This document shows, piece after piece, positions 47,714 through 57,302 of a stretch of DNA of 64,000 nt (the first letter of the stretch is position 1; every line of letters starts with the position of its first letter). The DNA is from Nitrospiraceae bacterium. GTDB taxonomy: Bacteria > Nitrospirota > Nitrospiria > Nitrospirales > Nitrospiraceae. The translations under genes and the position numbers were made by a program. The notes beneath the pieces were generated by a model. It was not told the origin of the DNA and did not search any database. It saw only the letters and a program-made list of their open reading frames with translations. The stretch is taken from the NCBI GenBank assembly GCA_009692155.1, contig SHZW01000007.1:1-64000 (forward strand). The letters run 5' to 3'.

Positions 47714-48961
47714 CTAATAAAACGCCATACTCGCGTAGGTCACCGTCGAATTAAATTGGTCCGTAATGCTACGGTCATAACGTAAGACCTGTCCCTTCCC
47801 GTCTCCAAGCAGTTTCAGCAACGTATAGATGGCGGCGAAGCCGGAGATGCGACGGACGTCCCCCTCCTTCACGATGAACTGGGTAAAGGCGTTCGCATTC
47901 ATCTCCTCCACGTGTTTCAGCATGGTCAGATCCGTTTGCATGCAACGGTGGAACGAGAAGTCGGTGGGTGGCGACGAATCGCCGTAGCGCATGCCGAGAT
48001 GGGCCAGTTCGGCGCTGGCTATGACGCAGGCCGGTCTCCCCGCTGCGGCTAGGGCATCCCGCAACGCTCCGAGAAATGTTTCGATCCGATCGCGCAGTTC
48101 GCGCATGTGAGGATCGAAGAACGTGGCAGGCGGGAACGCACATAGAACCGGCACAACGGTGATCGCTTTGGTGAGTCCTGAGGCAAACTGAAGAAACGGC
48201 AGCTGAAACTCAATGGAATGTTCGTTCCGGTGGGCCAGTTCTTCGTCAAGACAGAAGCCGGCGGTAGTTTTGAGCCGGTCGAGAATTGCAGGGTCGGTTT
48301 TGACGACGCCAAGCGGCGTCTCGAAATCCTTCCCGGTCACGGCATAGCCGTTCTGTAGCCCGGCGTGGCAGGTGCCGAGGACGACAAACAGATCGGGCGC
48401 CTGCGCGTCCTGCAGCTCCTTATAGGCCCAGGCATAGATCGGCCCCGCGTGCTTGATCTCATAGTGGGGGGCGACGAGCCCCTTGATGGGCTGTCCCTTA
48501 TGTTCGGATTCTTTCCGATCCGGTCCTTCTTTTGAAGAAAAGCACCCCTTGAGTTGAGTCATCAACTTCTCGGGGTCCGCCTCGTAGCTCTTTCCGGCAA
48601 AGACGGCCGTGCGGATCGGTGCCGCCCGGTAGGCGGCCAGAGCGGCGTGGCGCGCCGCATCCACGCGCTCCCCTTCCAGAAACAGTTTGTCGTTCAGATC
48701 GTCGACTAGGCGCTGCAGGCGGTCCGGCACGAGAAACTCGCCGAACTTCCTGAGATACTCGCCGGAGATTTGCTCCAGTGTGTGCTCGCCGTCGAAAAAC
48801 TGAAGCAGAAAAAAGTAGCTCAACGGCACGATCAGCTTCTCCGTACTCAACCCGCTGGGGTCCCACAGGAGGACGTATTGGTCGTCGCCTTCCTTTAATG
48901 GAGAGAATTGGAGATTCCGGAGAAGCTGACATGGCCGTGCGTGTTGGATGGATTCGGTCAT
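47714..48961 (-). CDS. AmmeMemoRadiSam system protein B / MEMO-like protein with N-terminal extension
   Basis: GLVAPHYEIKHAGPIYAWAYKEL, FVVLGTCHAGLQNGYAVTGKDFETPLG, HRNEHSIEFQLPFLQ. Confidence 0.85.
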   Translation of the reverse strand: MTESIQHARPCQLLRNLQFSPLKEGDDQYVLLWDPSGLSTEKLIVPLSYFFLLQFFDGEHTLEQISGEYLRKFGEFLVPDRLQRLVDDLNDKLFLEGERVDAARHAALAAYRAAPIRTAVFAGKSYEADPEKLMTQLKGCFSSKEGPDRKESEHKGQPIKGLVAPHYEIKHAGPIYAWAYKELQDAQAPDLFVVLGTCHAGLQNGYAVTGKDFETPLGVVKTDPAILDRLKTTAGFCLDEELAHRNEHSIEFQLPFLQFASGLTKAITVVPVLCAFPPATFFDPHMRELRDRIETFLGALRDALAAAGRPACVIASAELAHLGMRYGDSSPPTDFSFHRCMQTDLTMLKHVEEMNANAFTQFIVKEGDVRRISGFAAIYTLLKLLGDGKGQVLRYDRSITDQFNSTVTYASMAFY

Positions 48962-49707
48962 TGTGGAGGTTCCGTTCCCTTTCGGCGCGCGTGGAAAACG
49001 ATCAGCGTGGCGATCGTGATCGCCAGCAGCCACCACGTCGCCCGCCCATATTGCGGCTGGGCATATTCGATCAGGTCAGTGAGTCGTCCGATCAGCAGGG
49101 ACATGCGCGCCATGACGGTGTAACCGAAGGCGGCGCCGAACGCGATCATCAGGAAGATGATACCGGTTCGCGCGACGGCTTTTCCAGGCCCGGTATGTTC
49201 GACCGAGAAGAAGAAATAGAACAGGACGGAGACGACGCCGATCAGAAGCACAATGGCGTTCAGGTTGCTGGCCGGGTTGAGCAGGCTATAGGTGAACGTC
49301 GTGCTCCCGTCCGTTGCCAGAAATGCCAGAGGGCGAACGGTATCTTCGATTTGCTTGAGAATATAGGAGGAAATCACCCGCGGGATAGCCAGGCCTGACC
49401 CGACACCGACGACGAAGGCAAATGCGATGCGGGACATCCAGGCGGCTTTCGGAACATAGCGCGTCAGCATCAAGGCGCCGATGGCAAGCGGGATCAGCAG
49501 CCACCAGTCTCCCTGCTTGACCATGGGCTCGTAGATCAGGCGGATGACCACGGTGTCGTAGGTTTTGACGATCGCATAGCCGACGGAGATGCCGACGTAG
49601 AGGTGCTCGGCCAGCTTGAAGAGCGGGTTGTCCTGATAGAGGAATGTCAGGATGAACAGGGTTAATCCCGTTGCCACCCATGCGCCAAGAATGACTTCGA
49701 ATGACAT
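48958..49707 (-). CDS. Multi-TM membrane protein of the GlmL/DUF6754-type cluster
   Basis: LYVGISVGYAIVKTYD...; about 7 hydrophobic segments; 4-nt overlap with next gene. Confidence 0.75.
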   Translation of the reverse strand: MSFEVILGAWVATGLTLFILTFLYQDNPLFKLAEHLYVGISVGYAIVKTYDTVVIRLIYEPMVKQGDWWLLIPLAIGALMLTRYVPKAAWMSRIAFAFVVGVGSGLAIPRVISSYILKQIEDTVRPLAFLATDGSTTFTYSLLNPASNLNAIVLLIGVVSVLFYFFFSVEHTGPGKAVARTGIIFLMIAFGAAFGYTVMARMSLLIGRLTDLIEYAQPQYGRATWWLLAITIATLIVFHARRKGTEPPQ

Positions 49708-49712
49708 GCGCC

Positions 49713-50567
49713 CTAACTCCGACTCTGCTTAGCCCGGTTCTTCGATGTCCGGGTCAGAAGATAGAACACATTGCACAAGATCACCAGCAGGATGATGGCA
49801 AAATGCGTCGCCGACTGCGCATCCATGCCGGCAACGGCGTTGCCATTCCTGCCGATCAAAACTTCATATTCAGCAGCGCCGCGCAATCCCCCGATCAGGC
49901 CGTTGATCTGTCCGCTGCGCAGCAGCGGGTACAGGCCGGGTGCGATCACGCCCGTACAGCCACCGCCCAGCTCGAATTTATATTTGTCCTTGCCGAAGAC
50001 GTACCAGGTTTCGATCCCGGTGCTGCCCGCGGCCAGACTGATGACGTAGTTGACATCCCGCAGGCTCTGCACGCCCTTGAGGACCGGCATTTCCGCCGTC
50101 GGCTGATTGTTGTAATCAGTGGGGAAGGCTTTGTAGAGATCCTGCCCCATATTGATGATGACCGAGCTGGCGCCCGGGCTCCAGCCAAGGAACACATAGT
50201 CTTTTCCGGATACCTTCCCCTCCTCGCGGGCGACGCGTGAGACGACTTCGCTGGCCATGCCGGTGCCGGGCAGCCAGAGCGTCATGCCGATCACGCGCAG
50301 GTTTTTCTTGAATGCATGATGCAACAAGGCGACGGCTTGCGGGTACAGTTCGGGTTTGGAGGCCGGATCGAAGTCCAGCGACAGCAGGAAGACCGAGCCT
50401 TCCGGAAGCGATTCGATATAGTCATAGACGCTTTTGACCTCGGGCGAGACTTTGATGGCGAGGCCGACCGGATACAGCAAGGGAATCAAGGTGCAGAGGC
50501 CGATCATAAAAAAAATGATCCGGCGATCGATGTGCAGCATGCGTTCGGCGAAACTCACGGGATTCAT
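49713..50567 (-). CDS. Membrane-anchored hypothetical protein
   Basis: MNPVSFAERMLHIDRRIIFFMIGLCTLIPLLYPVGLAIKVSPEVKSVYDYIESLPEGSVFLLSLDFDPAS... Confidence 0.75.
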   Translation of the reverse strand: MNPVSFAERMLHIDRRIIFFMIGLCTLIPLLYPVGLAIKVSPEVKSVYDYIESLPEGSVFLLSLDFDPASKPELYPQAVALLHHAFKKNLRVIGMTLWLPGTGMASEVVSRVAREEGKVSGKDYVFLGWSPGASSVIINMGQDLYKAFPTDYNNQPTAEMPVLKGVQSLRDVNYVISLAAGSTGIETWYVFGKDKYKFELGGGCTGVIAPGLYPLLRSGQINGLIGGLRGAAEYEVLIGRNGNAVAGMDAQSATHFAIILLVILCNVFYLLTRTSKNRAKQSRS

Positions 50568-51223
50568 TATTCCTTCCCGCCGCCAAGATATGCCCGTTCG
50601 ACACCAAAAATAATCTTCAGGGACAGGGCCACGGCGCCCAAACTGACGCCGATTAAAATAGCCCGCCGCACGGAGGCATTCAGGACGTTGAGAATCCATT
50701 GCGTGATATCGCCGCTGATCGGGATCAGATGCTCGCCGAGCGGTACACGGCCCATCATGACAATGATGGCAGCGATCAGCAGGACCGCCGCCTCCCGGCT
50801 TCTGGCTCTGAATGAACGGTACGCGGCCGAGGCGATGAAGAAGGCCAGAATGGCGAACATCGTTCCCTGCAGCGGCACCATCATGAATGTATAAATCCAC
50901 CCGAAGGCCGTCGTGACGCCATCCGTCGTTTCCTTCCCGCCATGCCACAGGCCGATCACAATCGTGCCGATCATGCCGGCGTAGAGCACGAAGCTGTAAC
51001 CCCAGCCCGGCTCCTTCCGCCTGATCTTGACGGCGTGGATATGAAAGAGGCTGGTCACGCCCAGGATCAGGGCAAATCCGCCGATAATCTGCAGCCACTT
51101 GGAGACCGAGGTGAGCATCAGTTCGGAAGACGGATGCGGAATGTAGTACTGCGCGGCAAACAGCAGGCCGGTGACGAGCGTAATCAGAAGCGGAAGCTGT
51201 CGCCGCAGAAAGGTCATTTCCAA
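50567..51223 (-). CDS. Multi-TM membrane protein
   Basis: MEMTFLRRQLPLLITLVTGLLFAAQYYIPHP...; overlapping operon. Confidence 0.75.
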   Translation of the reverse strand: MEMTFLRRQLPLLITLVTGLLFAAQYYIPHPSSELMLTSVSKWLQIIGGFALILGVTSLFHIHAVKIRRKEPGWGYSFVLYAGMIGTIVIGLWHGGKETTDGVTTAFGWIYTFMMVPLQGTMFAILAFFIASAAYRSFRARSREAAVLLIAAIIVMMGRVPLGEHLIPISGDITQWILNVLNASVRRAILIGVSLGAVALSLKIIFGVERAYLGGGKE

Positions 51224-52536
51224 TCCTTCACGAGGTCGAGCACGAGCGACACATCCGCATGAAACAGAACGGCGGCCGTGGCGAGGGCGGTTCCGAGTCC
51301 CAGGGCGACCAGGATGCAGGCCTTGCCGATATCCTGCCCGCGCAGCGTGCCGAGCTGAACCGGCTCACGCGACAGATAGGCGCTGGCTGCATAGAGCTCT
51401 TCGCCGATCAGCGTGTAATCGCAAGTGGTGACAAAAAAAGGCATCTGGTGGTCGGAGTCCGTACCGGCAATCTGAATGGCACCCGTGCTGGCGCCGGTTT
51501 CTGTCAGGAGCAGGGATTCGGCAAAGTAGGAGCCCATGAAGAAGTTGGCAGCCGGCTGCTTTCTCAGCATGATGCCGTCCACGGCCGCGGTGTAACTGAA
51601 TTGGTCGGTCGTGATGAAGAAGTTGGAATCATCCTTGAAGGCATCCGGTTTGCCCGCCTCGAGATAGGACTGCTTGGTGATTTCCTGGCAGACAGCCATG
51701 ACGATGGGGTCCCGGTGGGGCACCATCAGTTCGGTCTCATAGGAAGCGACTCGTTTGGCAACCCGTCCGAGAATCACGGCAGCGGCAACCGTTGACGGCT
51801 CGCTCATGTCCCCGGCACCGGTAAGATAAAGAATGGGTTTCCCAAGTTCGGTCGCGCGGCCGATGGCTTCATCCACCGCATCGAGGCCGGGAATGCGGCG
51901 CAGGAAAATTTCCTTTCGCCTGGCAGCCTGGATCGAGCCGAGCACGATAAACCCAAAGATCACGACGATGGCCAGGTTGTTGGCCTGGTTCCAGTTGAAC
52001 CAATTGGGTTCGGGCGTCGCCTGCACCGGCGTTGCAGGCGCCCGCTGCTCCCCTGCAACAGCTGCGACAGTCACGGCATAGGACGTGCCGTCTTTGAGCT
52101 CAATCCCCTTGCCTGACTTGATCGTAAATTGATGCGCGTCGTTCGGGGCCGGCCTGGTCCACCAGGGTGCCTTGGAATCGTGGACGTAATGCGTGTCGGA
52201 TGCAAATTCCGCAATGACTTTCGGCTCACCGGCATTCGGTTCATGGAGCAGGATTTGATATCGAAGGTCTTTGCCCTCTCCGTTCGTTTTGTCCCATATC
52301 ACGGTGAGACTTCCGCCGCCGTCGTTTGGAGTGTCGAAAGCATGAACATGCGGCGGCGGTGTCAGCGGGGTCTGCGCTTGAACGGACAACGGAGTGAGCA
52401 GCAGCAGTACAAACAGTGCTGAGTACTGAGTGCTGAGTCCTGAGTGGTACAGAAAGGGTCTGACCGACCAATGACGTGTTCCGTCATTCATCGCTCCGCT
52501 CTCAGCACTCAGCACTTTTCGCTCAGCACTCATCAT
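51214..52536 (-). CDS. DUF6754-like exported/membrane protein with FnIII-like N-terminal region
   Basis: Signal-like ALFVLLLLTPLSVQAQ; ...GKPILYLTGAGDMSEPSTVAAAVILGRVAKRVASYETELMVPHRDPIVM...; family name from memory. Confidence 0.65.
   Translation of the reverse strand: MMSAERKVLSAESGAMNDGTRHWSVRPFLYHSGLSTQYSALFVLLLLTPLSVQAQTPLTPPPHVHAFDTPNDGGGSLTVIWDKTNGEGKDLRYQILLHEPNAGEPKVIAEFASDTHYVHDSKAPWWTRPAPNDAHQFTIKSGKGIELKDGTSYAVTVAAVAGEQRAPATPVQATPEPNWFNWNQANNLAIVVIFGFIVLGSIQAARRKEIFLRRIPGLDAVDEAIGRATELGKPILYLTGAGDMSEPSTVAAAVILGRVAKRVASYETELMVPHRDPIVMAVCQEITKQSYLEAGKPDAFKDDSNFFITTDQFSYTAAVDGIMLRKQPAANFFMGSYFAESLLLTETGASTGAIQIAGTDSDHQMPFFVTTCDYTLIGEELYAASAYLSREPVQLGTLRGQDIGKACILVALGLGTALATAAVLFHADVSLVLDLVKDWK
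52415..52535. repeat. Inverted pair of heptamer arrays (AGTGCTG type 52415-52447; CTCAGCA type 52494-52535)
   Basis: agtgctg/agtactg/agtgctg/agtcctg ... ctcagca/ctcagca/cttttcg/ctcagca/ctcatca. Confidence 0.85.
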
Positions 52537-53660
52537 TGCCCTTCGATGAGCTCTACGTTCGCCCGTGGGATGACGGCACGAGTCTTATCCGGGAAACCGA
52601 CTTCGAGCACGCGGACATGGCTCTCGGTTTCGATCTGCCGCAGGTCCGCCGGGAGCGCCGCCACCTGGCCGATGCGGCCGAATAATGGATCGCGGATGAT
52701 GCGGACCTGATCGCCCACCCGGATGCCGCCCCGTTCGGCGACGCCCGTGTCCTGGATGGCGCGGGTCCCGTCCACCGTGATGATGATCTCCGGCCGGATC
52801 ACGCCGGCCCTGATCTGCGTCGCACCTGAGACCGATGCCTTCTGTCCCTGGTGTTTTGACAGGAGCGCAAACGTTTTGGCTGCCATTGGGATCGTCCCGA
52901 ACCCTTCAGTCAGGATGATGGTGATGCCGATCTTTTCCGTGCCCGTGATGGCCACGCCCAGATCGTAGCCGAGCAGGGCCCGCAGGTCCTTGTCGTGGAT
53001 TCCGCCGACGATCAATGCCGCCACGCCGATTTCCCGGGCACGCGCCAGCGTGTCGGCGCCGAGAAACGAGCCGCCCACGACAATCTTTCCCTTCATGCCC
53101 GTGGTCAGCCGATCGGCTGCGAGTGTTTCGTCCGGCGATGCGGCCGCCATCTGTATCTCGCCCCAGGTTTCCCCCCCGACCCCGAAGATGCCTTGCACGA
53201 GCGTGCAGGACGTCTCGATGGTGATGCCTTGCTGGGGGTGCACCTCCACGGCCGTTCCGTCAATATATGCGAGCAACTCCAGGCGACGCGGCGGCTCGCG
53301 CAGCAGCACCTGCCCTGTGATGGCGGATACGGTCTCGACCGTGCCCTGGATGGGTGAGCGGACGGCTGTTTTGAGAAATTGGATGAACGGTTTGTTTTCC
53401 GCGATCACGTCATCCTTCCGAACCGGCTCCCCTTCCTTCGTGATCAGATAGTCGTGGATTTCGTCCGGTGCAATACCCAGGAGATTGGCCACATTGATGG
53501 AATGGACCTTGCCGGGCAGTTCCGCCTGGGCGACGACGGAATCAGCCTTGAGCAGGTCTCCCTGTTTGACCATCACGGTTCCGGGAATCGGCAGCAGGCG
53601 TCGTTTCCGAACAGTCGTGCGTTCGGTGACCGTCAGCCCTGGTGTGTACGCGTGTCCCAT
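52533..53660 (-). CDS. Barrel/KOW-like protein (RnfC-barrel-type N-terminus)
   Basis: RKRRLLPIPGTVMVKQGDLLKADSVVAQAELPGKVHSI...; C-terminal GDQVRIIRDPLFGRIGQVAALP... Confidence 0.6.
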   Translation of the reverse strand: MGHAYTPGLTVTERTTVRKRRLLPIPGTVMVKQGDLLKADSVVAQAELPGKVHSINVANLLGIAPDEIHDYLITKEGEPVRKDDVIAENKPFIQFLKTAVRSPIQGTVETVSAITGQVLLREPPRRLELLAYIDGTAVEVHPQQGITIETSCTLVQGIFGVGGETWGEIQMAAASPDETLAADRLTTGMKGKIVVGGSFLGADTLARAREIGVAALIVGGIHDKDLRALLGYDLGVAITGTEKIGITIILTEGFGTIPMAAKTFALLSKHQGQKASVSGATQIRAGVIRPEIIITVDGTRAIQDTGVAERGGIRVGDQVRIIRDPLFGRIGQVAALPADLRQIETESHVRVLEVGFPDKTRAVIPRANVELIEGQ

Positions 53661-53671
53661 AAATAAAACTT

Positions 53672-53751
53672 AGGCTATAGGCGATGGGCTAGAGGCTATA
53701 GGTAAGATTCCTCGTCCCGCCCATGGCCTATCGCCCATTGCCCATAGCCTT
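53672..53751. repeat. Inverted pair of degenerate heptamer arrays (aggctat... / ...tagcctt)
   Basis: aggctat/aggcgat/gggctag/aggctat and tggccta/tcgccca/ttgccca/tagcctt. Confidence 0.8.
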
Positions 53752-55596
53752 CCCTTGCGGATACAACCCCACCGAGTTGTGCCATCTCGTCAGGGCTGCC
53801 ACCCTTGCCCTGGCATCAACGGGCAGTTGAAGAGGGCGACCCCGACCGTCAAGCATCAATCCGGCTGCGCCGCCCCGGGCTTCGCGTGTCACCGTTGTGC
53901 CTTTGCCTTCACCGAGATCAACCTGTTTCGCCGGCTTCATGGTGACCCGTGCCCGCTCGCCGGCACCCAATGAAATCAATCTCAATTCCCCGAACATTAA
54001 TGTTCCACTCTCAGGCTGCCTGTCGCGTTCGAAGGTGATCTGGTACTCGGCGCATTTCTCGCCGTCCTTGCCCTGCCCGATCGGCGCCACGCAGGTTCCC
54101 AGGTAGACCAGGCAGTCGTGGATAAAGACGTCGGTCGCAGCCTTTTCGTTGACGGTCGAAAGGACACCCAGGTGCGGCATCATGAAAATACTGTCCACTG
54201 AGAGTGTGGTGAAGCCGGGGGGTTCGTAGGCATCCACCATCATGAGCATGGATTGGATGCGCCGTGGCGCATGGGACAGGATGCCGCCGCTGCCGACGAT
54301 TAAATCCAGCTTCAACATGTCGATCAGGCTGTCGCCGGATGTCTTTTGCTCGAAAATGTCCGAGATTGTCCGCGCCTGCTGGACGCCCTTGAGGCCGGTC
54401 GCCAACGACTTGTGGTGAATCAGAGCCAGCCGCAGGGCTTCGCGCGCGATAGCCTGCTCGATCTGCAATTCGTCCAGCGTCTGCGGGATGGTCGTCGGAC
54501 GGATCATCTTGTTCTTGATGCGGTTGCGCAAGGTCTGCTCATCCACGTCGAACGGCACCCACCGCATGATATTGGCGAGCCCGGCTTCGGCCAGCACGTT
54601 GGAGATGCTGTAGGACATGCCGAGGTTGGCACTGACCGTGCGGTTGAAGACGCCGTCATACACGGAGAAGACGTCCGTGGTGGCGCCGCCGATATCCACG
54701 CCGATCAAATTGATCTTGTCGCGCTTGGCCAGGGCTTCCATGATGAAACCGACGGCGGCCGGCGTCGGAACGATCGGCGCGCCGGCCCAGGAGATCAGTT
54801 TTTTATAGCCGGGGGCCTGGGCCATGACGTGTTCGAGAAACAGGTCGTGGATTTTATTGCGGGCCGGCGACAGGTTTTCCCTTTCGAGCGTCGGGCGGAT
54901 GTTGTCCGTGACAACCAGCGCCGTTTTTTGGCCGAGAATGGCCGTGACCTGGTCGCGGGCGTTTGTGTTGCCCGCATAGATCAGCGGCAGCGAATAGGTC
55001 ATCCCGAGGCGCGGGCGTGGCTCGGCGGCCGAGATATATTCGGCCATTTCGACGACGTGCGTGACGGTGCCTCCGTCCGTTCCACCCGAGAGGAGAATCA
55101 TGTCCGGCCGCAGCGAGCGGATGCGCTCGATTTTTTCATGCGGAAGCCGGCCGTCGTTCGAGGCCAGCACGTCCATCACGATGGCGCCGGCGCCCAGCGC
55201 GCACCGTTGGGCGCTCTCCCCCGTCATGCTCTGGACAACGCCGGCCACCATCATTTGAAGGCCGCCGCCGGCGCTGCTGGTCGACACGTAGATGTCGACG
55301 CCCGTTTTGGAATGGCCGCCTGCGCCGGCCGGCGTGATGATCTTTTCTCCGTCAAGAATTTTCCGGCCGGACAGTTCCTCCACCTCGGCGATGGCGTTCA
55401 AGACACCGCGGGTGACGTCTTCAAACGGGGCTTCCACGGTCGTGGGCGCTTCACCACGGAATGTTTGCCGGAATGTGTCGCCTTGTTTTTCGATCAGAAC
55501 GGCTTTGGTCGTGGTGCTGCCGCAGTCTGTGGCGATGATGACGGACAGGGGGAGATCGGCGGTCTTTTTGTGCGGGACCTGCACGGCAGCACTCAT
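53728..55596 (-). CDS. GlmL/MutL-type ASKHA ATPase (glutamate mutase L family)
   Basis: IIATDCGSTTTKAVLIEK, AGGGLQMMVAGVVQSMTGESAQRCALGAGAIVMDV, LIGVDIGGATTDVFSVYDGVFNRTVSANLGMSYSI. Confidence 0.85.
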   Translation of the reverse strand: MSAAVQVPHKKTADLPLSVIIATDCGSTTTKAVLIEKQGDTFRQTFRGEAPTTVEAPFEDVTRGVLNAIAEVEELSGRKILDGEKIITPAGAGGHSKTGVDIYVSTSSAGGGLQMMVAGVVQSMTGESAQRCALGAGAIVMDVLASNDGRLPHEKIERIRSLRPDMILLSGGTDGGTVTHVVEMAEYISAAEPRPRLGMTYSLPLIYAGNTNARDQVTAILGQKTALVVTDNIRPTLERENLSPARNKIHDLFLEHVMAQAPGYKKLISWAGAPIVPTPAAVGFIMEALAKRDKINLIGVDIGGATTDVFSVYDGVFNRTVSANLGMSYSISNVLAEAGLANIMRWVPFDVDEQTLRNRIKNKMIRPTTIPQTLDELQIEQAIAREALRLALIHHKSLATGLKGVQQARTISDIFEQKTSGDSLIDMLKLDLIVGSGGILSHAPRRIQSMLMMVDAYEPPGFTTLSVDSIFMMPHLGVLSTVNEKAATDVFIHDCLVYLGTCVAPIGQGKDGEKCAEYQITFERDRQPESGTLMFGELRLISLGAGERARVTMKPAKQVDLGEGKGTTVTREARGGAAGLMLDGRGRPLQLPVDARARVAALTRWHNSVGLYPQGKAMGNGR

Positions 55597-55985
55597 CGGG
55601 CGGGCGCTCCTGCAGGAGCAGATTTGGCAGGAGCCGGCTTGGCAGTAGCAGGCCTGGCTTCGATGAGTTCAATTAAGCGGGGGATGGCATCGCGCCGCTC
55701 GAGCAGACACGCCGCCCGTTCGATCTCGCGCGCGTCACAGGCCAGATCCAGGATAGGAGCGAGAAAATGCAACGCCTGGCTGCTGAGAAAATTCATCGGT
55801 CCGGCTGATTCAAGAAAGAGCAGGGCAGGACCTGCCATGCGCTGATTCACAACGGTGGCGGCGACTTTCTCCAGCAAAGCCTGTTCATCAGCCGAGAGCG
55901 GCTGCCCGTCCGGTTGGAGGGCAAAGGCGTGCCGGAGTGAGGCTTTGAGTTTCTGAAATCGTGGAGAGAAGTCGGTTATATTCAT
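55593..55985 (-). CDS. Hypothetical protein upstream of the GlmL-like gene
   Basis: MNITDFSPRFQKLKASLRHAFALQPDGQPLSADEQ...; 4-nt overlap. Confidence 0.65.
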   Translation of the reverse strand: MNITDFSPRFQKLKASLRHAFALQPDGQPLSADEQALLEKVAATVVNQRMAGPALLFLESAGPMNFLSSQALHFLAPILDLACDAREIERAACLLERRDAIPRLIELIEARPATAKPAPAKSAPAGAPAR

Positions 55986-56046: not shown

Positions 56047-56940
56047 TCAGGTCATGGCCTGCTGCGCCGCATGGTAGGAGCTTCGCGCCAATGGGCTGGC
56101 CTCCACGTGGCTGAATCCGAGCGCGAGGCCTTCAGTTTTGAATGCTGCGAATTCATCCGGGTGGTAATAACGCGAAACCGGGAGGTGGTGCCTGGTCGGC
56201 TGAAGATACTGGCCGATGGTCAGGATCTCACAATTGGCGGCTCGCAGGTCCTGCATGACCTGTCTAATCTCGTCCGTTGTCTCTCCCATTCCGAGAATGA
56301 GGCCAGACTTCGTTGTCATGCCCATGTGTTTGGCGCGCCCGAGCAGCGCGATCGATCGCTGATATTTGCCTTGCGGCCTGATGTCCGGAAAGAGCCGTTC
56401 GACCGTTTCGATATTGTGGTTCAGGATTTCCGGCCGTTCAGCCGTGACGGTTTGCAGGGCGCTCTCGCTCCCTTCAAAGTCAGGAATGAGAACTTCCACG
56501 GTGCAGGCTTGGTTCAACCGTCTGATCTGCCGGATCGTTTCGGTGAACACTGACGCGCCGCCATCGTCCAATTCATCCCGGTTGACGGAGGTAATGACCG
56601 CGTGCTTGAGGCGCATGGCCTGTACGGCTTGCGCCACACGCAGCGGTTCGTCATAGTCAACGGCCAACGGTTTTCCGGTGGTCACGGAGCAGTAATGGCA
56701 CCGGCGCGTGCAAATATCGCCGAGGATCAAAAATGTCGCTGTACGATTGTTCCAGCATTCCCAGATGTTGGGGCACCGGGCTTCCTCGCAGATGGTATGG
56801 AGGCCGAGATCGTCCACGACTTGCCGGATGTCCCGATAGTCCGGTCCCTGCTGGAGACGGACTTTAAACCAGGGCGGCAGGCGTTGGTGCGAAGAGCTGC
56901 CATCACCCCTCCGAAGGTCTTCAATCGGAACAAAACTCAT
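56047..56940 (-). CDS. lipA: Lipoyl synthase
   Basis: CEEARCPNIWECW; CTRRCHYCSVTTGKP. Confidence 0.96.
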   Translation of the reverse strand: MSFVPIEDLRRGDGSSSHQRLPPWFKVRLQQGPDYRDIRQVVDDLGLHTICEEARCPNIWECWNNRTATFLILGDICTRRCHYCSVTTGKPLAVDYDEPLRVAQAVQAMRLKHAVITSVNRDELDDGGASVFTETIRQIRRLNQACTVEVLIPDFEGSESALQTVTAERPEILNHNIETVERLFPDIRPQGKYQRSIALLGRAKHMGMTTKSGLILGMGETTDEIRQVMQDLRAANCEILTIGQYLQPTRHHLPVSRYYHPDEFAAFKTEGLALGFSHVEASPLARSSYHAAQQAMT

Positions 56941-57302
56941 GCGCGGGGTTCTCCCTGTCGTAGCCATCCGAACAGCCGGGCAATGATTCCGTCGGGCGGT
57001 CGAACGGAGAATTCAGGGTCGGGGTATTCGATCCAGGGCTCCTGGTTGCCGCAATAGGTGTTTTCTCTGAAGCTGAGCTGGCTCCGAAGCTGCCGGAAGC
57101 CTCGCGTGTGCAGCAGGAGGATTAATTCTACCAGGGCATCGGCCTGGGTTGCGCGACTGTCCGTCACAAGAAACGTGGTTTCATACCGGAGCATTGCGCG
57201 GCACATGCCACCGTCACGCTCCAGTTCGACCACCCGGTTAAACCCTCGCTCGTGCTCATCCAATCCGGCCAGCTGATGTTTTTCGACGATGTCTTTCGGC
57301 AT
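56937..57302 (-). CDS. Hypothetical protein
   Basis: ORF overlapping lipA start by 4 nt. Confidence 0.6.
   Translation of the reverse strand: MPKDIVEKHQLAGLDEHERGFNRVVELERDGGMCRAMLRYETTFLVTDSRATQADALVELILLLHTRGFRQLRSQLSFRENTYCGNQEPWIEYPDPEFSVRPPDGIIARLFGWLRQGEPRA

Follow-up and report, generated by a model that had tools for sequence, protein, structure and literature searches.

Proteins of the MutL/GlmL family, and Or-4, lie beside B12-dependent aminomutases and are thought to act there as reactivases or chaperones. A gene of this family is also found in a 64,000-nucleotide stretch of DNA from a Nitrospiraceae bacterium (assembly GCA_009692155.1, contig SHZW01000007.1, positions 1 to 64,000; hereafter the window), as one of eight consecutive minus-strand genes at 47714-55985. 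An earlier, sequence-only reading had described these eight as an overlapping operon with no glutamate mutase, in which the ATPase, the barrel-type protein and their membrane partners might form a membrane-associated ATP-dependent complex. We find that seven of the genes (P150, GlmL, KOW, DUF6754, TM218, S3 and TM249) are a core conserved set and that the eighth, a MEMO-like gene, lies outside it. The seven, genes 2 to 8 in order of coordinates, probably encode one two-module ATP-dependent inner-membrane system, whose products would form a physical complex. The genes are as follows:

47714..48961, minus strand: MEMO-like protein with an N-terminal PqqD-like region (Pfam Memo, E 1e-42); a lineage-specific accessory, not core
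48958..49707, minus strand: TM249, polytopic membrane protein (by hydropathy) of the core membrane module
49713..50567, minus strand: S3, with N- and C-terminal transmembrane (TM) helices flanking an alpha/beta (Rossmann-like) domain, predicted to be periplasmic (AlphaFold, positive-inside rule)
50567..51223, minus strand: TM218, polytopic membrane protein (by hydropathy) of the core membrane module, with a TTG start
51214..52536, minus strand: DUF6754 protein (PF20539), predicted from hydropathy and charge to comprise a signal peptide, an exported FN3-like domain, a TM helix, a conserved cytoplasmic domain and a second TM helix
52533..53660, minus strand: barrel-sandwich/KOW protein (RnfC_N, Biotin_lipoyl and KOW matches across the family), putative GlmL partner
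53728..55596, minus strand: GlmL/MutL-family ASKHA ATPase (PF13941, E 2.1e-128) with a C-terminal extension of about 130 residues
55593..55985, minus strand: P150, small soluble protein (130 aa) with a proline/alanine-rich tail, upstream of GlmL

The open reading frame (ORF) list bears out the run of eight genes and all five overlaps quoted previously, namely MEMO/TM249 (4 nt), S3/TM218 (1 nt), TM218/DUF6754 (10 nt), DUF6754/KOW (4 nt) and GlmL/P150 (4 nt). The other two junctions show no overlap: 5 nt separate TM249 from S3, and 67 nt separate GlmL from KOW. Pfam agrees with the identities that had been assigned to MEMO, DUF6754 and GlmL/MutL. Searches of Pfam and NCBIfam matched no family for TM249, S3, TM218 or P150.

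Profile searches of fetched loci revealed a conserved order, P150-GlmL-KOW-DUF6754-TM218-S3-TM249. Same-strand adjacency was observed for P150-GlmL at 50 of 51 loci, for GlmL-KOW at 53 of 56 and for KOW-DUF6754 at 55 of 65; within the membrane genes the values were 89/91 (DUF6754-TM218), 84/88 (TM218-S3) and 83/85 (S3-TM249). This clustering is far above chance. Among the loci listed from a species-genome scan (at least 80), the cluster occurs in at least nine phylum-level lineages, among them Nitrospirota, Methylomirabilota, Latescibacterota, Elusimicrobiota, Planctomycetota, Gemmatimonadota, Poribacteria, WOR-3 and TA06. Nitrite-oxidising Nitrospira are among the Nitrospirota carriers, and the anammox genera Brocadia and Anammoxibacter among those of the Planctomycetota. 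Relatives that bear a name are Nitrospira and other Nitrospirota genomes. The genes are thus kept together across phyla, and the lack of joint conservation that would have spoken against the earlier reading was not seen.

Genome-level co-occurrence gave a consistent picture. MutL was present in all 43 genomes of a DUF6754 set and the barrel/KOW protein in 42 of them. Since these genomes were picked for the presence of DUF6754, unbiased draws from Nitrospirota and Planctomycetota are a better test. Co-occurrence was exact among 246 Nitrospirota genomes, where the same 61 hold DUF6754 and an above-cut-off MutL; these 61, all from the source's own family in that draw, are related genomes and not independent events. 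In 119 Planctomycetota genomes we found both genes in 27, DUF6754 only in 4, MutL only in 6 and neither in 82 (Fisher P = 6.5e-17), and all 29 Planctomycetota genomes with KOW carry DUF6754 or MutL. DUF6754 was present in 32 of 41 near relatives; within the order Nitrospirales it is carried by two further families and missing from a third (f3). In the closest relative, of the same genus (G001), a frameshift appears to break DUF6754, which runs on into TM218 (L053:9039-10260); an assembly error is the probable cause. A phage or plasmid origin of the system was considered and rejected, as neither the phage nor the plasmid collection held a DUF6754 match.

Rearrangements of the cluster suggest that the system is built of two modules, P150-GlmL-KOW and DUF6754-TM218-S3-TM249. 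In Brocadia, P150-GlmL-KOW stay joined though apart from the membrane genes, and at loci L202 and L203 the module order is swapped, with GlmL-KOW after the membrane block. The DUF6754-TM218-S3-TM249 block is tandemly duplicated at three loci (L135:3303-11183, L192:6223-13580 and L193:6602-13114) and partly so at a fourth (L199:7811-12384), which could mean that heteromeric complexes are formed. Two WOR-3 genomes carry a fusion of GlmL with a divergent KOW in a single open frame of at least 856 codons. This fusion argues for a direct partnership of GlmL and KOW.

The window GlmL is a clear PF13941 (MutL) protein, scoring 429 bits against a cut-off of 27 over profile positions 1-449 of 450. It falls below the equivalog cut-offs of both NF040745 (GlmL, 231 vs 475 bits) and NF040744 (Or-4, 209 vs 600 bits), and all 16 aligned members of its clade match the same three models. 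The ASKHA motifs DCGSTTTK, GVDIGGATTD and GSGG(I/V)LSH(A/S)P are conserved across these 16 sequences, and ATP binding by the GlmL-like protein is therefore expected from what is known of the family. Within the clade, identity to the window protein is 45-81%, and for most of the DUF6754-linked proteins from other phyla it is 64-72%. Against GlmL encoded in glmS-glmL-glmE clusters (Peptoclostridium, Rhizobium and Prevotella), and against two further relatives, the clade shows 27-30% identity; for one of the two, the sizes of the cluster genes fit ornithine aminomutase. In a midpoint-rooted tree of 26 sequences the window clade is separate from the three glmS-L-E-linked sequences and from the other two. 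Furthermore, glutamate mutase E (PF06368) was found in none of the 43 DUF6754 genomes; these include the source genome, which is about 90% complete, and near-complete related genomes agree on the absence. The absence of a mutase noted for the window thus extends to the rest of the genome, and no phylogenetic link of this GlmL to a mutase was found. On gene content and phylogeny, the GlmL-like ATPase of this system is separate from glutamate mutase. The name 'glutamate mutase L' that is routinely and automatically given to this ATPase is misleading, because none of the 43 carrier genomes holds glutamate mutase E. Literature searches on GlmL with ASKHA or methylaspartate mutase returned nothing useful.

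Taken singly, the window protein lends little weight to the barrel/KOW label given to the GlmL partner, scoring 16.9 bits against an RnfC_N cut-off of 25.6. The label is backed by matches across the family, in which 28 members gave RnfC_N in 20, Biotin_lipoyl in 16, KOW in 6 and NqrA_N in 5; the KOW motif is C-terminal, and no conserved iron-sulphur (Fe-S) cysteine pattern was found. The DUF6754 protein matches PF20539 at E 2.6e-115 (384 bits vs a cut-off of 27). More than 60 columns, with Cys, Asp and Glu among them, are invariant in 37 sequences from many phyla. Its model has an FN3-like fold in the exported domain, and a structure search gave only FN3/Ig-like matches, all from that domain. 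The AlphaFold model of S3 (pLDDT 92.7, pTM 0.86) has a confident domain between the two TM helices, for which no PDB match with a TM-score above 0.38 of the query was found among the top 50, the hits being low-scoring generic alpha/beta folds. Searches by sequence gave no convincing PDB relatives for KOW, GlmL, DUF6754 or S3. The S3 domain is predicted to be periplasmic and the conserved DUF6754 domain cytoplasmic. Common ancestry of these two domains, prompted by their similar order of helices and strands, received no support from profile comparison and was set aside.

Nucleotide-driven opening and closing is typical of ASKHA proteins. We propose the following way in which the parts could work together. 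The cytoplasmic module would consist of P150, the GlmL-like ASKHA ATPase and the barrel/KOW protein, and the membrane module of DUF6754, the polytopic TM218 and TM249, and S3. GlmL, held to its barrel/KOW partner, would bind and hydrolyse ATP, and the pair would dock onto the cytoplasmic domain of DUF6754. Opening and closing of the ASKHA fold could then be relayed through TM218 and TM249 to S3 and the FN3 domain, and the relayed motion would perform work on a substrate within the inner membrane or passing through it. The genomic evidence for the gene system itself is strong. The membrane-associated ATP-dependent complex first proposed for this locus gains support from the cross-phylum linkage and the absence of a mutase, with the physical association and the biochemistry remaining putative. 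What the system does is a more tentative matter: transport, export or remodelling of an envelope substrate is our suggestion, one we rate as possible but somewhat less likely than not.

Several observations weigh against the proposal of a single machine. The two modules lie apart in Poribacteria, in Brocadia and in some Elusimicrobia. TM218, S3 and TM249 were undetected in the fetched stretch of some Planctomycetota (L186, L189 and L194) that possess DUF6754 and KOW, whether GlmL is nearby or not. The conserved cytoplasmic domain of DUF6754 is modelled with low confidence, and the predicted topology is based only on hydropathy and charge (the positive-inside rule). Furthermore, the genes flanking the core vary from phylum to phylum and indicate no single substrate.

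GlmL could instead be an ATP-driven reactivase or maturation chaperone, with the membrane DUF6754/S3 assembly as its client, an enzyme with a cofactor needing renewal. Membership of PF13941 fits this explanation, sampled GlmL relatives outside the clade adjoin glutamate mutase genes or lie in a cluster with gene sizes like those of ornithine aminomutase, and the invariant Cys, Asp and Glu of DUF6754 could form an active site. However, the mutase E subunit is missing from all 43 genomes, no cofactor-binding family was matched by DUF6754 or S3, and the clade, which carries a C-terminal extension of its own, is only 27-30% identical to mutase-linked GlmL. We regard the explanation as unlikely, though deserving of attention; the choice of transport, export or remodelling over maturation of such an enzyme expresses our leaning and is not a finding. 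That the gene is simply a glutamate mutase accessory misplaced among unrelated membrane genes, as PF13941 and the automatic names of its relatives would have it, is already contradicted by the 43 genomes devoid of mutase, the separate clade and the obligate linkage to DUF6754, and has next to no chance of being correct.

Two further explanations take their evidence from the partner protein and from the neighbourhood. The RnfC_N and NqrA_N matches (20 and 5 of 28 family members) would suit an energy-coupling or redox complex of the Rnf/Nqr type, with the barrel/KOW protein as an RnfC/NqrA-like peripheral subunit, as would two Tll0287-like c-type haem proteins inserted in the operon of Nitrospirales family f2 and the DmsC-like and molybdopterin oxidoreductase genes beside a variant GlmL-KOW in one planctomycete genome. 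Yet RnfC_N is below cut-off in the window protein, no other Rnf/Nqr subunit is present at the locus, and the barrel protein has no conserved Fe-S cysteines; the haem genes are limited to one family, and Rnf/Nqr contain no ASKHA ATPase. We therefore hold an Rnf/Nqr-type complex to be very unlikely. A role as accessory machinery for oligopeptide-type ATP-binding cassette (ABC) transporters is suggested by the SBP_bac_5, permease or oligopeptide ATPase genes that abut the cluster on the same strand, at varying positions, in Elusimicrobia, Latescibacterota and Anammoxibacter (L097, L110, L096, L101, L125 and L126). Such genes do not adjoin it in Nitrospira, Methylomirabilota or most Planctomycetota, and this transporter class is very common, so that some adjacency is expected. 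This role is, to our minds, highly improbable. A two-module ATP-dependent system of the inner membrane remains the reading we favour.

MEMO is a late, local, lineage-specific addition to the cluster. Outside two families of the Nitrospirales, its long form occurs in only a few genomes; it adjoins TM249 at 36 of the 39 loci that have this form, in Nitrospirales families f1 and f2 only, and is absent from the cluster in family f4 and in all other phyla. The window protein matches TIGR04336 at 128 bits and has a weak PqqD-related match at residues 23-89. Human MEMO1 binds iron through H49, H81 and C244 (PMC11081632). This ligand set is not kept in the window MEMO family: in a profile alignment to 7kq8/7m8h a serine stands opposite C244 and the histidine positions vary, which makes a simple iron-binding MEMO role unlikely. 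A second, canonical MEMO is encoded elsewhere in the source genome, and AMMECR1, absent from the window as had been stated, is on another contig.

Other neighbours are leads only. Assigning a function from flanking genes was tried and abandoned, as these (chorismate enzymes, a threonine-synthase-like protein, an M48 peptidase, a low-molecular-weight phosphatase, GFO/IDH, radical SAM-B12 and others) differ by lineage. The haem genes of family f2 are in tandem between KOW and DUF6754 (L049:7889-9428, with an equal-sized gap in L055), and the cluster of some Elusimicrobia is interrupted by genes for radical SAM-B12 and large membrane proteins. The transcription unit may exceed eight genes, because a same-strand lipoyl synthase gene, LipA (56047-56967), precedes P150 by 61 nt and several Nitrospirales keep this linkage. 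Rfam and tRNA scans of the window gave nothing, and the source genome (1.93 Mb, 27 contigs) has a single MutL gene. Elsewhere, some planctomycete and WOR-3 genomes carry a second, divergent GlmL-KOW pair or fusion beside the main one (L184:1995-5014, L205:8390-11328, L179:1764-4331 and L180:5200-8169), with unrelated neighbours and a GlmL 45-47% identical to that of the window. One planctomycete locus (L183:3703-12418) has a TM249-GlmL-KOW variant followed on the same strand by the DmsC-like and molybdopterin oxidoreductase genes.

The cluster is thus a conserved multi-gene membrane system of nitrogen-cycle organisms and uncultured phyla, for which we found neither a name nor an assigned role. 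It may be, though we stop short of calling it probable, a hitherto undescribed kind of ATP-driven machine of the inner membrane. Its power would come from an actin-fold (ASKHA) ATPase and not from a P-loop one, and its periplasmic domain would be without a close structural counterpart. Such a machine would occur in almost all Nitrospiraceae sampled, as well as in anammox bacteria and a number of uncultured phyla. If ASKHA ATP turnover does power membrane work, a bacterial membrane machine would here be using an uncommon source of energy, and the two-module, seven-gene parts list makes the system directly testable.

Compared with described systems, the locus shares single components. Its DUF6754 gene is a clear member of PF20539, a domain of unknown function, and a literature search, with subscription journals and preprints outside its reach, found no paper mentioning it. 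MEMO is all that the locus has in common with the AmmeMemoRadiSam trio (AMMECR1-MEMO-radical SAM): neither AMMECR1 nor radical SAM is a neighbour, and the MEMO protein has a PqqD-like N-terminal extension in addition. The barrel/KOW protein resembles RnfC and NqrA in a weak barrel-sandwich similarity but has an additional central region and a KOW motif, without Fe-S motifs or accompanying redox subunits. GlmL (NF040745) and Or-4 (NF040744) are like the window ATPase in belonging to PF13941 and in their ASKHA nucleotide-binding motifs, whereas proteins of the window clade have about 590 residues against about 465 in the known ones and are tied to a membrane module instead of mutase genes.

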